DNA from: an uncultured Porticoccus sp.
GTDB taxonomy: Bacteria > Pseudomonadota > Gammaproteobacteria > Pseudomonadales > Porticoccaceae
Assembly (NCBI GenBank): GCA_947259505.1
Contig: CAMYLT010000008.1
Location: forward strand, 310,001 to 374,000
Direction of reading: 5' to 3'
Length of the DNA: 64,000 nt
Shown here: piece by piece, positions 15,843-37,981 of the stretch
Layout of the letters: the number at the start of each line of letters is the position of its first letter
Position numbering within the stretch: the stretch's first letter is position 1
The notes under the pieces: model-generated
Database searches by the model: none
Seen by the model: only the letters and a program-made list of their open reading frames with translations
Told to the model about the DNA's origin: nothing
Made by a program: the position numbers and the translations under genes

Positions 15843-16861
15843 TGCAAAAAGGAATAATTGCGCTGTTATCAGTTCTTTTCCTGGCTTTGATAGCGGCTAA
15901 TTGGCTGCTGAATCATTATCTGGCTACGCCGCTTTTACTTGAGAGTAGTTCTAAAGCTATTCGGGTGTCTCCGGGCACTTCTTTGACATCACAATCCCGT
16001 CAGTTGGCAGATCAGGGCATACTGCAATGGCCGCGACTGTTGACGGTATACGGACGTTTCAGTGGCCAGGCCGATATCAAAGCGGGAGAGTATCTGCTGA
16101 ATCCGGGTGATACCCCACGCGATCTATTGGCAATGTGGGTGAAGGGGGACGTCATTCAATACAGCCTGACGTTTCCAGAAGGACGCCGATTTGCAGATTG
16201 GCTGCTTCTGCTCTCCGGTACAGAGAAGATTAACCATGTGCTTCAGGGTGAGGGTATGGATGAGCTTCTGGTTGAGCTTGACTTAGATGTTAACCACCTT
16301 GAAGGTTGGTTTTTTCCAGACACCTATAGTTTCAGTGCTGGTGATACAGATCGAGATATTCTGCTTCGGGCACATGCCAGGATGATTGCCGTGCTGGAAG
16401 CCGAATGGCAGGGCCGCGCACCCAACTTGCCTTATGAGAGTCCTTACCAGGCGCTGATTATGGCTTCCATCATTGAAAGGGAAACTGGTGCTCCGGACGA
16501 GCGGGGCCAGATCGCTGGTGTATTTGTGCGGCGTTTGCAAAAAGGCATGCGCCTGCAGACAGACCCGACTGTTATCTATGGACTGGGGGATGAGTACAAG
16601 GGCAACATACGACGTAAACACCTCCGCCAGCCGAGTGCCTATAACACGTACCTGATTGATGGGCTGCCGCCTACGCCTATTGCCATGCCCGGTCGTGATG
16701 CCATTCATGCTGCGCTACATCCAGAGCAAGGCGACAGCCTTTATTTTGTTGCCAAGGGTGATGGCAGTCATTACTTTTCTGCTACCCTCGAGGAGCACCA
16801 GAAAGCGGTTAGGGAATTTCAGTTGAAACGGCGTTCGGATTACCGCTCCAGCCCTCAATAA
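15830..16861 (+). CDS. mltG: endolytic transglycosylase MltG
   Basis: '[26 protein letters not shown]', '[10 protein letters not shown]'; start MLRLMQKG. Confidence 0.95.
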
Positions 16862-16880
16862 CGGAAACAACTGTCTCAGC

Positions 16881-17522
16881 ATGACCAGTCAAAAGGCACA
16901 ATTTATTACCATTGAAGGCGGTGAGGGTGTGGGAAAAACCACCAATGTCGCCTTCATTCGTCAGTGGCTGGAGCAGCATGGCATCAGTTATGTGGCTTCT
17001 CGGGAACCTGGTGGCACACCACTAGCTGAGGAAATTCGTACGCTGCTGGTAAGTACCAGGGATGAGTCTGTTGACGAAAATACCGAGCTGTTATTGATGT
17101 TTGCTGCGCGCGCTCAACATCTGGCGCAGGTCATTAAGCCTGCTTTGGCAGAGGGGAAATGGGTGCTCTGTGATCGCTTTACTGATGCAACTTTCGCCTA
17201 TCAGGGTGGTGGGCGAGGAATGGCCCTGGAGAAAATTGCACAGTTGGAAAATTTGGTTCAAGGTGAGCTGCGTCCCGATTTGACACTGCTGTTAGACATT
17301 CCGGTTGATCAAGGGATGGCACGGGCTAATGGGCGTGGAGCTCCTGATCGTTTTGAGCTGGAAAAGTTATCCTTTTTCAATGCCGTGAGGGACTGTTACC
17401 TGGCCAGAGCCGCAGCAGACCCAGCCCGTTTTCGCATTATTGACGCATCGCAACCTCTTGAGCAGGTTCAGCAAGATCTAGCGCGTGTTCTACAGCAGTT
17501 TTTTGATTGCATTCATGAGTAG
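16881..17522 (+). CDS. tmk: thymidylate kinase
   Basis: '[15 protein letters not shown]', '[13 protein letters not shown]', '[16 protein letters not shown]'. Confidence 0.97.
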
Positions 17523-33218: not shown

Positions 33219-34334
33219 ATGAAAAAGGTTGGTTTTGTAGGTTGGCGAGGCATGGTCGGTTCAGTATTGATGGACCGCATGCAGCAGGAAAATGATTTTG
33301 CCCTCATCGAGCCTGTGTTCTTTACCACTTCCCAGCTGGGTCAAGCCGGTCCGGATGTGGGGGCAGAGGTCCCGCCGTTACAAGATGCGCGGGATGTTAC
33401 CGCACTGGCCAAGATGGATGTCATTATCACCTGCCAGGGTGGTGATTACACCAAGGCGGTCTACCCCGAACTGCGCAAGTCCGGCTGGGACGGTTACTGG
33501 ATTGACGCTGCGTCTGCGCTGCGCATGGCGGATGATGCCCTGATTATTCTGGATCCAGTCAACCTCAATGTGATCAAGGACGGTATTGCCGGGGGTATTA
33601 AAAACTTTGTCGGTGGCAACTGTACCGTCAGCCTGATGCTGATGGCCATGGGAGGGCTGTTCAACCGCGGCTTGGTGGAATGGACTTCGGCCATGACTTA
33701 TCAGGCAGCCTCCGGTGCCGGTGCCCAGAATATGCGCGAGCTGATTGCCCAGATGGGTGCCATTGAGCAATCCGTGGCCGCAGAGCTGGCCGATCCAGCT
33801 TCTGCGATTCTGGATATTGACCGCAAGGTGGTGGCGGCCATGCGCAGCGACAGTTTTCCGACTGAACATTTCGGGGCTCCCCTGAGTGGTAGCCTGCTGC
33901 CCTGGATTGACGTGCAACTGGAGAGTGGTCAGAGCAAGGAAGAGTGGAAAGGGCAGGCGGAAACCAACAAGATTCTTGGTCGCTCTGGTGACACCCTGAT
34001 CCCGGTGGATGGTATCTGCGTGCGTATTGGCGCCATGCGCTGTCACAGTCAGGCGTTGACGGTCAAATTAACTCAGAATGTGCCCCTGGATGAGATCGAA
34101 GCCATGCTGGCGGAAGCCAATGACTGGGTGAGGGTTATTCCCAATGATCGCACAGCCAGCCTCAAAGAGCTGACGCCGGCTGCGGTTACCGGCAACCTCC
34201 ATGTGCCGGTAGGGCGCCTGCGCAAGATGAACATGGGTGACAACTACCTGGCGGCCTTTACCGTGGGCGATCAACTGCTTTGGGGCGCAGCAGAACCACT
34301 GCGTCGCATGCTGCGGATTTTGCTGGAGGGCTAG
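33219..34334 (+). CDS. asd: aspartate-semialdehyde dehydrogenase
   Basis: '[18 protein letters not shown]', '[17 protein letters not shown]'. Confidence 0.97.
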
Positions 34335-34392: not shown

Positions 34393-34604
34393 ACGGGTGG
34401 TCGACGTTGTGTTTTTGTGCAACTGGTCATAAACAGGGCGATATCTGGGTGGTATTGACCATATTTGCCCTCCATAGCGGTTGAACAATTTCATTTACTC
34501 ATAAATACTTGCACTCAGAACCTCACATCATGTAAATGGTTTTTTGTGTGTCTATGCAGCCTTTGCGGAAGGTGGCCCGCGCACAGCAAAACAGGGAATA
34601 TCGT

Positions 34605-37121
34605 ATGAAGTTACGTCACTTGACCTTGGCAGCCGGATTGTTCGGTGTGGTTGTCTCCAATCAGACGTTCGCCGTCGGGTTGGGGGAGCTCAAACTCAAT
34701 TCGGCATTGAATGAGCCACTGGATGCTGAAATCCAGCTCTTGAATGTTGGTGAGCTGTCCGAGCTGGAAATGCTGGTCGGACTTGGTTCCCAAAAGGATT
34801 TTGACAATGCCGGAGTAGAGCGCCCGTTCTCGCTGACAGATTTGCGTTTTGAGGTCGATCTGTCCAAGCCTGGCAACCCCGTCATCCTGGTGACTTCCCG
34901 CAAACCACTTCGTGAGCCTTTCGTTGATTTCCTGGTGGAGGTTGATTGGCCGACGGGTCGATTGCTCCGTTAATACACTGTATTGCTTGATCTTCCTGTC
35001 TATGCGACGGAGAAGCCTTCTGCAAAAAAGATTGAGGCTGCGAGCTCAGGTTCGCAGCCTGCGTCGCAGCCGCGGCGGCAATCTCCTGCACCTGCGGCAA
35101 CTGCAGCGGTAAGTGCGCCATCGCTGGCGGTGGGTGATGACGAATACCGGGTGAGTGGTGGCGATACAGTCTGGGCTATTGCAGAAAAAATACGTCCTCA
35201 GGGTGCTTCTATGGCACAGACCATGGCGGCTATCAAGCAGGCTAATCCCCATGCGTTCATTAATGACAATATCAATCTTCTAAAGAAAGGTGCGGTACTG
35301 AGGCTGCCTGAAGGCAGTGATATCGCAGCCCTTTCGGACGTCAGTGTAGATCTTACCCCCAGTGCAGTCGCATCAAATGAAGCTCAGGCCCCTATGCTGG
35401 ATGCCACCCCGATGACCAGTGAAACAGGGTCGTCAGATGAGGCTGGTGAAGGTCGTTTGAAGTTGGCGGCGTTGGGTGCAGATGAGGCACTGACATCAGC
35501 TGCCGCCGGCGTTGATGGAGGCGATGCTGCAGGCGTCGATACGGCGGGGTCTGCTTCAGATGTGCTCACAGTTGCTCAGGAGGAACTGGATAAGACAGTT
35601 CGGGAAAATACTGAATTGAAAGACCGCATCGCGAAGCTGGAGGAGCAGCTTTCAACGATGAATCGTCTGGTGGAAATCCAGGATGATTCCTTGCGTGGTG
35701 CCCAGGTGGCGACTCAGGTAGATCAGGAAGCCGCACCGATTACTGGTGGTGCGTCTGAGCAAGCATTGAACGACGATGCAGAGACAGCGGTTGCTGTTGC
35801 AGAAGAAGCGATGCCCGAGTCTGAGAGTGAAGTAGAGTCTGGCAAAGCCAAGACCTTCGACCTTGCCAGCCTGATGGATTATTTGCTTTATCCTGCCATT
35901 GGCCTGTTGGCGTTATTGCTGGCTGTGCTGATGTTCTTTCGGAATCGCAAGCCGGAAGAAGAGGAGGTTGACGAGCTTTCCCTGCAAAGTCTTGTGGATC
36001 GCCAGGAGCCAGAAGCACCACAAGAGGAGAGTGATCAGCTCCTTACAGAGGACGACAAGGAATACATTGCCGCACTCGCTGAAGAACTTGATGACGAAGA
36101 GCAGCAGGATTTTGATGTCCTGCAGGAGCTTGAGGAGCTGCAGCTAGGTGATGGAGAAGGCGTTGATCCAAAGGGCGAAGCAGATATCTATTTGTCTCTG
36201 GGTAATTATCGTCAAGCCGAAAATATTCTTAAGGGTGCCATAGAGACCGATCCGGAAGACAGCTCATTGCGAATGAAGTTGCTGGAAGTCTATGTGAATG
36301 CCAATAACCTTGAGGCATTTGATGAACAGCGGGCGCAATTGGCAGCACTGAATAATCCTGAAGCTGATGCCAGGGCAATGAAGCTTCGTGCGGAGCTGTC
36401 ACCCGAAGCTATGGACGATTCCAGCGCTGAGCCGGATGTTGACATCATTGAAGAAGCCGCCCCCACCATTGGTGAGCAGCATAACGGAGAGGGGTTCGAT
36501 GCCCCCTCCCTTGATTACGACCTCGGAGATGTCTCACCTGAGCTGGTTGCCTCCTTGACTGAGGGCGCTGCACAAAAGAAACCCGGTGGTGACGAACTTG
36601 ATGTGCCTGATAGTGATGACGAGCTTGTGGCATCCGTGACCTCCCCGTCGAAAGAGCCAGTTGCTGAAGACTTTGATCTGGACTTGGATCTGGGCGATAT
36701 AGACCTAGACTCCCTCTCGTCTGAAATCGATCAGGGGATGTTTGACATCGATCTTGATGAGCCTGAGCCCGCGGTCTCAGAACCTTCTGCCGTCGAAGAG
36801 ACGCCAGCAGCAGTTGCCGAGGTTGAGGATTCTTTTGGTGCGCCCGAATCTCTCAAGGAGCAGACGTTTGAGGAGCTGGAAGATTCCATCCTGTCTGCCG
36901 CTGACACAGAAAACGATGGTGCTTATGACGTGGAAGCAGAGCTGAAAGAATTTGGAGATGAGGATGTCTGTGATACGAGGTTGGTATTGGCTGAAGCCTA
37001 TATAGACTTGGGCGATCAAGATAACGCTCGAGATTTGCTTAATGAAGTGGTTGATGAAGGCACTGAAGAGCAAAAAGAGAAAGCTCGTAATTTGCTCGAA
37101 ATGATGACCCGAATATCATGA
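34605..37121 (+). pseudogene. fimV: FimV/HubP-family polar protein, split by an in-frame TAA at 34971-34973
   Basis: 'LGELKLNSALNEPLDAEIQLLNV...FVDFLVEVDWPTGRLLR' TAA 'YTVLLDLPVYA...' LysM-like 'YRVSGGDTVWAIAEKIRP', TM, C-terminal 'DTRLVLAEAYIDLGDQDNARDLLNEVVDEG'; both halves in the same frame. Confidence 0.88.
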
Positions 37122-37981
37122 CCCAGGGGAAACCCTGGGAGTACCTCTCCAATGGCTTGGTGCCAGAAGGCGAAGTGCTTCCAGAAGGTCTAAAACGCAT
37201 CGCTGCTGCCGTCGAATATGACGGCAGTGCTTTTTGTGGTTGGCAGCGCCAAACCCATAGCCCCAGCGTTCAGTTTCATGTTGAAGCTGCGATTACTCAG
37301 GTCGCTAATGAGCGTATCAGTGTCGCCTGTGCGGGCCGTACCGACACTGGGGTCCACGCTACCAATCAGATCATTCATTTTGACACCCGCGCGGAACGCA
37401 ATTCGAGGAACTGGGTGCTGGGTGTGAATGCTAATTTGCCCTTTGGCATTCGTCTGCATTGGGTGGCAGAACAACCAGCTCAATTTCATGCGCGTTTCGC
37501 CGCAACGGCCAGAACCTACCGCTATTTAATTGTGAATCAGCCACATCGCTCAGCACTTTTTTACCATTGGCTGACTTGGGAAAAGCGCTTGCTAGATCAA
37601 TCCCTTATGCACGTTGCGGTGCAGCAGTTGCTGGGTGAGAATGACTTTAGCTCTTTCCGTGCTGCGGGCTGCCAGTCAAATTCGCCTAACCGCAATGTGC
37701 ATGCAGCTCGGGTCTGGCGCCAGGGTGAGCTGGTCATCCTGGAGATTACCGCCAATGCTTTCTTGCATCATATGGTGAGAAATATCACTGGGGCATTAAT
37801 GTGTATCGGGAGGGGTGATTATCCGGCGGAATGGCTGGGGGAATTGCTGGAAAAACGTGATCGCACCCAAGCGCCACCTACCGCACCGCCCAATGGCCTA
37901 TATTTGGTTGGGGTGAACTATCCTCAACATTTTGACGTACCCAGTTTTAAGCCGGGTCCTCAGTTCATCAGTGATTGCTGA
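37118..37981 (+). CDS. truA: tRNA pseudouridine(38-40) synthase
   Basis: 'AAVEYDGSAFCGWQRQ', 'CAGRTDTGVHATNQIIHFDT'. Confidence 0.96.
   Translation: MTQGKPWEYLSNGLVPEGEVLPEGLKRIAAAVEYDGSAFCGWQRQTHSPSVQFHVEAAITQVANERISVACAGRTDTGVHATNQIIHFDTRAERNSRNWVLGVNANLPFGIRLHWVAEQPAQFHARFAATARTYRYLIVNQPHRSALFYHWLTWEKRLLDQSLMHVAVQQLLGENDFSSFRAAGCQSNSPNRNVHAARVWRQGELVILEITANAFLHHMVRNITGALMCIGRGDYPAEWLGELLEKRDRTQAPPTAPPNGLYLVGVNYPQHFDVPSFKPGPQFISDC

Follow-up and report, generated by a model that had tools for sequence, protein, structure and literature searches.

An in-frame TAA codon in the fimV gene of a Porticoccus-like marine genome

The fimV gene assembled from an uncultured Porticoccus sp. carries TAA at codon 123, at a position where none of the relatives compared has a stop, and the remainder of its reading frame is intact and without signs of decay. 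We consider it fairly probable, though well short of certain, that this is an isolated nonsense mutation, of very recent origin, in the otherwise ordinary fimV of one Porticoccus-like marine genome. In such an allele, translation would end after 122 residues, and the product would be an exported, incomplete Ig-like domain lacking the LysM domain, the membrane anchor and the cytoplasmic TPR domain, so that the cell would be without a working FimV. Work on Pseudomonas FimV leads us to expect that polar organisation would be lost and that type IV pili would be weak or mislocalised. That the living cell carries the stop, lacks the full-length protein and shows this phenotype is our inference.

The fimV reading frame and its internal stop codon

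The window, which is the whole stretch of 64,000 nucleotides that was analysed, includes the complete fimV locus. Translation of positions 34605-37121 gave 838 codons before the final TGA; the ATG at 34605, the TAA at 34971-34973 and the final TGA at 37119-37121 lie in a common frame, in which codon 123 is the sole internal stop. A genome-wide search with FimV returned one fimV locus, with '1 TAA' inside, and thus agreed with the codon count on the single in-frame TAA of the original prediction. The list of open reading frames divides the gene in two, 34536..34973 and 34983..37121, the second part being 712 aa long when counted from a TTG. After the stop the frame remains open for about 715 codons and is homologous to FimV along its whole length, which argues that it is not a random ORF and exceeds what chance would be expected to give.

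The matches to PF25800, TIGR03505 and TIGR03504 (Table 1) each exceed the curated cut-off, which bears out the naming of the gene as fimV; the PF25800 match was obtained with the frame read through, and the domain would be incomplete if translation ended at codon 123. Three features of the FimV/HubP family are therefore present, namely the LysM-like FimV_core, the C-terminal FimV TPR domain and the FimV-type N-terminal Ig-like domain, and the downstream part retains its LysM-like, transmembrane and C-terminal FimV domains as had been proposed. A further family feature is an exported periplasmic part, a transmembrane segment and a cytoplasmic part encoded in one uninterrupted frame. Here that frame is interrupted by the TAA at codon 123, and for this reason the locus is classed as a putative broken fimV gene and not as a working FimV. 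A sequence search found no solved structure of the FimV Ig-like domain. In an AlphaFold2 model of this domain from the relative G003 (mean pLDDT 79), the last strand comprises residues 118-127 and codon 123 is mid-strand; the stop is thus predicted to lie inside the last strand, not at a domain boundary, and a cut at this codon would leave a broken Ig-like domain.

Table 1. Features of the fimV locus, with positions numbered from the first letter of the window
Feature	Position	Strand	Evidence
asd-like gene (presumed), upstream neighbour of fimV	33219..34334	+	ORF; same neighbour in L013
fimV reading frame, one internal TAA	34605..37121	+	Translation; FimV_N, FimV_core and FimV_Cterm matches
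Probable signal peptide, residues 1-23	34605..34673	+	Sequence MKLRHLTLAAGLFGVVVSNQTFA; hydrophobic start conserved in relatives; inferred from sequence
N-terminal Ig-like domain FimV_N, residues 24-131, interrupted at codon 123	34674..34997	+	Pfam PF25800, E=3e-37
In-frame TAA, codon 123, within last predicted beta-strand of Ig-like domain	34971..34973	+	Column comparison; G003 domain model
TTG, only start-type codon from the stop to 35130; poor candidate start	34983..34985	+	Upstream TGCTCCGTTAATACACTGTA without Shine-Dalgarno-like stretch
LysM-like domain FimV_core, residues 187-245	35163..35339	+	TIGR03505, E=2e-20
Single transmembrane segment, about residues 423-445	35871..35939	+	Hydropathy maximum of the frame
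TPR-like stretch, residues 525-591	36177..36377	+	Pfam TPR families, E about 1e-6 to 1e-7
C-terminal FimV TPR domain FimV_Cterm, residues 792-832	36978..37100	+	TIGR03504, E=4e-16; PDB 4mal FimV, E=9e-9
truA-like gene (presumed), downstream neighbour, overlaps fimV stop	37118..37981	+	ORF; same neighbour in L013

Codon 123 in relatives and constraint on the frame

Related genomes, one per species, were searched for FimV, and a match was obtained in 52 of the 58. Position 123 is a sense codon in all 29 fimV genes of other species that align across the site (L003-L031), as well as in two further named records (L039 and L040), and a stop at this codon was found in none of these sequences. The encoded residue is Glu in every aligned record except L039 (Zooshikella), which has Gln, in line with the earlier statement that Glu normally occupies the site. 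Because every aligned relative has a sense codon, the stop appears to be private to the host genome among the sequences compared. Relatives with a conserved stop and an independent start of the second part, which the original prediction had named as counter-evidence, were sought and not found. Two apparent lesions in relatives were rejected: the frameshift implied by split matches in fimV of G015 (L015/L036, UBA2511) is an N run in the linker, i.e. an assembly gap, and the 'internal TGA' in G013 is the normal end of the gene. Separately, the phage record OQ572409.1 encodes at 16151-17230 a protein similar to FimV (36% over a stretch of 363 residues); it is an unannotated 22.6 kb record under the name Pseudomonas phage Y7 and probably represents host DNA in a phage record.

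Constraint was assessed by a leave-one-out count of departures from otherwise invariant FimV columns. Before the stop the host (G000) departs at 5/54 such columns versus 4/53 in G003, and after the stop at 9/158 versus 11/160; in the LysM columns the counts are 0/29 and 1/30, respectively. FimV distances to the outgroups are slightly smaller for the host than for G003. Both before and after the stop, pN is much lower than pS, with synonymous sites saturated and dN/dS poorly measurable. Since conservation at these columns is on a par with that in G003, the lesion would seem either too recent for any trace of decay or absent from the cell. Its age is bounded only by the lack of decay, because the nearest relative, G003, is just 61% identical in FimV. 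The intact frame of the relatives, the private lesion and the scarcity of other decay would suit a recent nonsense pseudogene. A very recent change or an error, as first suggested, fits both the private codon and the unrelaxed columns.

Genome context and consensus accuracy

The host genome (2.46 Mb in 8 contigs, 94% complete) has marine Porticoccus and Cellvibrionales metagenome assemblies as its closest named relatives. The neighbours of fimV are presumably asd-like and truA-like genes, giving the order asd-fimV-truA, and a relative (L013) has the same two neighbours. A genome-wide search found no second intact fimV, and the only other FimV match in the genome is a LysM domain on a different protein. 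This domain (L002, G000:C4:3595-3855) is of the FimV type, 55% identical to that of fimV, and lies N-terminally in a serine hydrolase with predicted export and similarity to D-alanyl-D-alanine carboxypeptidases. PilQ, PilB, PilT and PilU all have intact frames, as do the flagellin genes of the host. Flagellin is patchy in the genus, occurring in 8 of 17 genomes, the host included. Within the same genus, the small genomes G001 and G004 lack fimV, PilQ and PilT together, and the small genome G014 has neither a fimV match nor a true PilT over the cut-off; these three fimV-less members are 1.2-1.7 Mb in size. This joint absence shows that the pilus and polar landmark system can be lost in the genus. 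The host genome is not of this small-genome kind.

The ORFs of a complete relative (G008) were compared with 404 kb around the window as a survey of interruptions, and among the approximately 170 evaluated ORFs with homologues fimV was the only real one. Other apparent breaks (trpA, an NfeD-region ORF, a TolC-like ORF and others) proved to be antisense frames or reading frames extended upstream of the start; three of the flagged breaks were examined individually, and the remainder were judged by a stop near the first residues of the query or by many stops in a frame overlapping another gene. Because no other interrupted gene emerged from these comparisons, the assembly is not generally poor, and it is neither error-ridden nor rich in pseudogenes.

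This clean background, together with a stop site lying outside any homopolymer or repeat as judged by eye, weighs against the main alternative, namely that the stop is a consensus error from sequencing, assembly or strain mixing and that the fimV of the cell is intact. We regard such an error as a serious possibility, of lower probability than the nonsense allele. About 3-3.6% of single-base substitutions in the genes here would create a stop; at a consensus error rate of 1e-5 per base, which is an assumption and not a measurement and counts to that extent against the argument, a genome of 2.46 Mb would be expected to contain about 25 substitutions, of which about one would create a false nonsense codon, so that a single such codon would be unsurprising. 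A fimV frame without other damage or relaxation, intact pilus partners and close database relatives that are metagenome assemblies also favour an error.

The downstream part, readthrough and known systems

It is very improbable that the two parts act separately, the first as an Ig-like domain that is exported and the second as a HubP-like protein of LysM-TM-TPR architecture. The long open downstream frame with its FimV domains is in keeping with such a division, as is the lack of an Ig-like domain in HubP of Vibrio and Shewanella (PMC12918733), but translation would break off within the final strand of the Ig-like domain, not between domains, and no relative shows a split fimV. The alternative downstream starts are the TTG at 34983, a GTG just ahead of LysM, or a codon within LysM; the best of them, the TTG, has no Shine-Dalgarno stretch, and the first ATG falls inside LysM. 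Inspection of the downstream sequence revealed no signal peptide, no ATG ahead of LysM and no visible ribosome-binding site. As no hydrophobic export signal precedes LysM, the usual route to peptidoglycan would be closed to this domain. Peptidoglycan binding and polar anchoring both require the LysM domain in P. putida (PMC12918733), and in P. aeruginosa the pilus alignment complex is delocalised upon loss of FimV or of its LysM (PMC5285504). The proposal of two separately functioning parts therefore fares poorly, with a cut in mid-strand and a second part lacking a signal peptide or plausible start, and a naturally split FimV, whose leaderless LysM-TM-TPR part is translated alone and still serves as a HubP-like landmark, is more doubtful still.

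Readthrough or suppression of the stop, by which full-length FimV would still be produced, has a similarly slim chance. It would account for the normal constraint on the frame after the stop, but the TAA is followed by T, and +4U reduces readthrough in E. coli (PMC5289835). No tRNA with an ochre anticodon occurs among the tRNA genes listed (at least 30, with some expected tRNAs absent and the genome 94% complete), and a whole-genome search for an ochre anticodon combined with a T-loop pattern gave no suppressor tRNA, its sole tRNA match being tRNA-Lys with anticodon TTT. The case for the absence of an ochre suppressor is strong but not exhaustive. Conserved recoding is unlikely because the relatives lack the stop; programmed readthrough would call for a stop conserved at the same place, where every aligned relative has a sense codon. 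The bypass first envisaged thus runs against both the TAA-T context and the tRNA search, and neither programmed readthrough nor a functional FimV in two pieces has support.

If real, the nonsense allele would add another type IV pilus regulator lost through one mutation, perhaps selected by phage or by growth on surfaces; the smallest genomes of this genus have no fimV or pilus genes at all. If the stop is an error, its only relevance is as a warning when the host genome is annotated. In either case knowledge of FimV is unchanged.

FimV of Pseudomonas is a polar organiser required for type IV pili. Like the proteins of P. aeruginosa and P. putida, the frame described here encodes a signal peptide, an Ig-like domain, LysM, one transmembrane segment, an acidic cytoplasmic part and a C-terminal TPR, and its 838 residues are close to their 911-919 (PMC12918733); unlike them, the host copy has a stop within the Ig-like domain. 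The LysM-TM-TPR architecture of the downstream part resembles HubP of Vibrio and Shewanella, but HubP has a periplasmic LysM part, while the downstream part of the host gene lacks a signal peptide for export. Nonsense and loss-of-function lesions of fimV are already known in Pseudomonas, where a nonsense mutation was reported in 1 of 88 cystic fibrosis isolates (PMC9241816) and fimV transposon mutants were phage resistant (PMC9603268); the present lesion is an ordinary one. As in those alleles, fimV here is intact apart from one lesion; the Pseudomonas alleles come from clinical or laboratory isolates of P. aeruginosa, whereas this one comes from a marine genome known from its assembled sequence.
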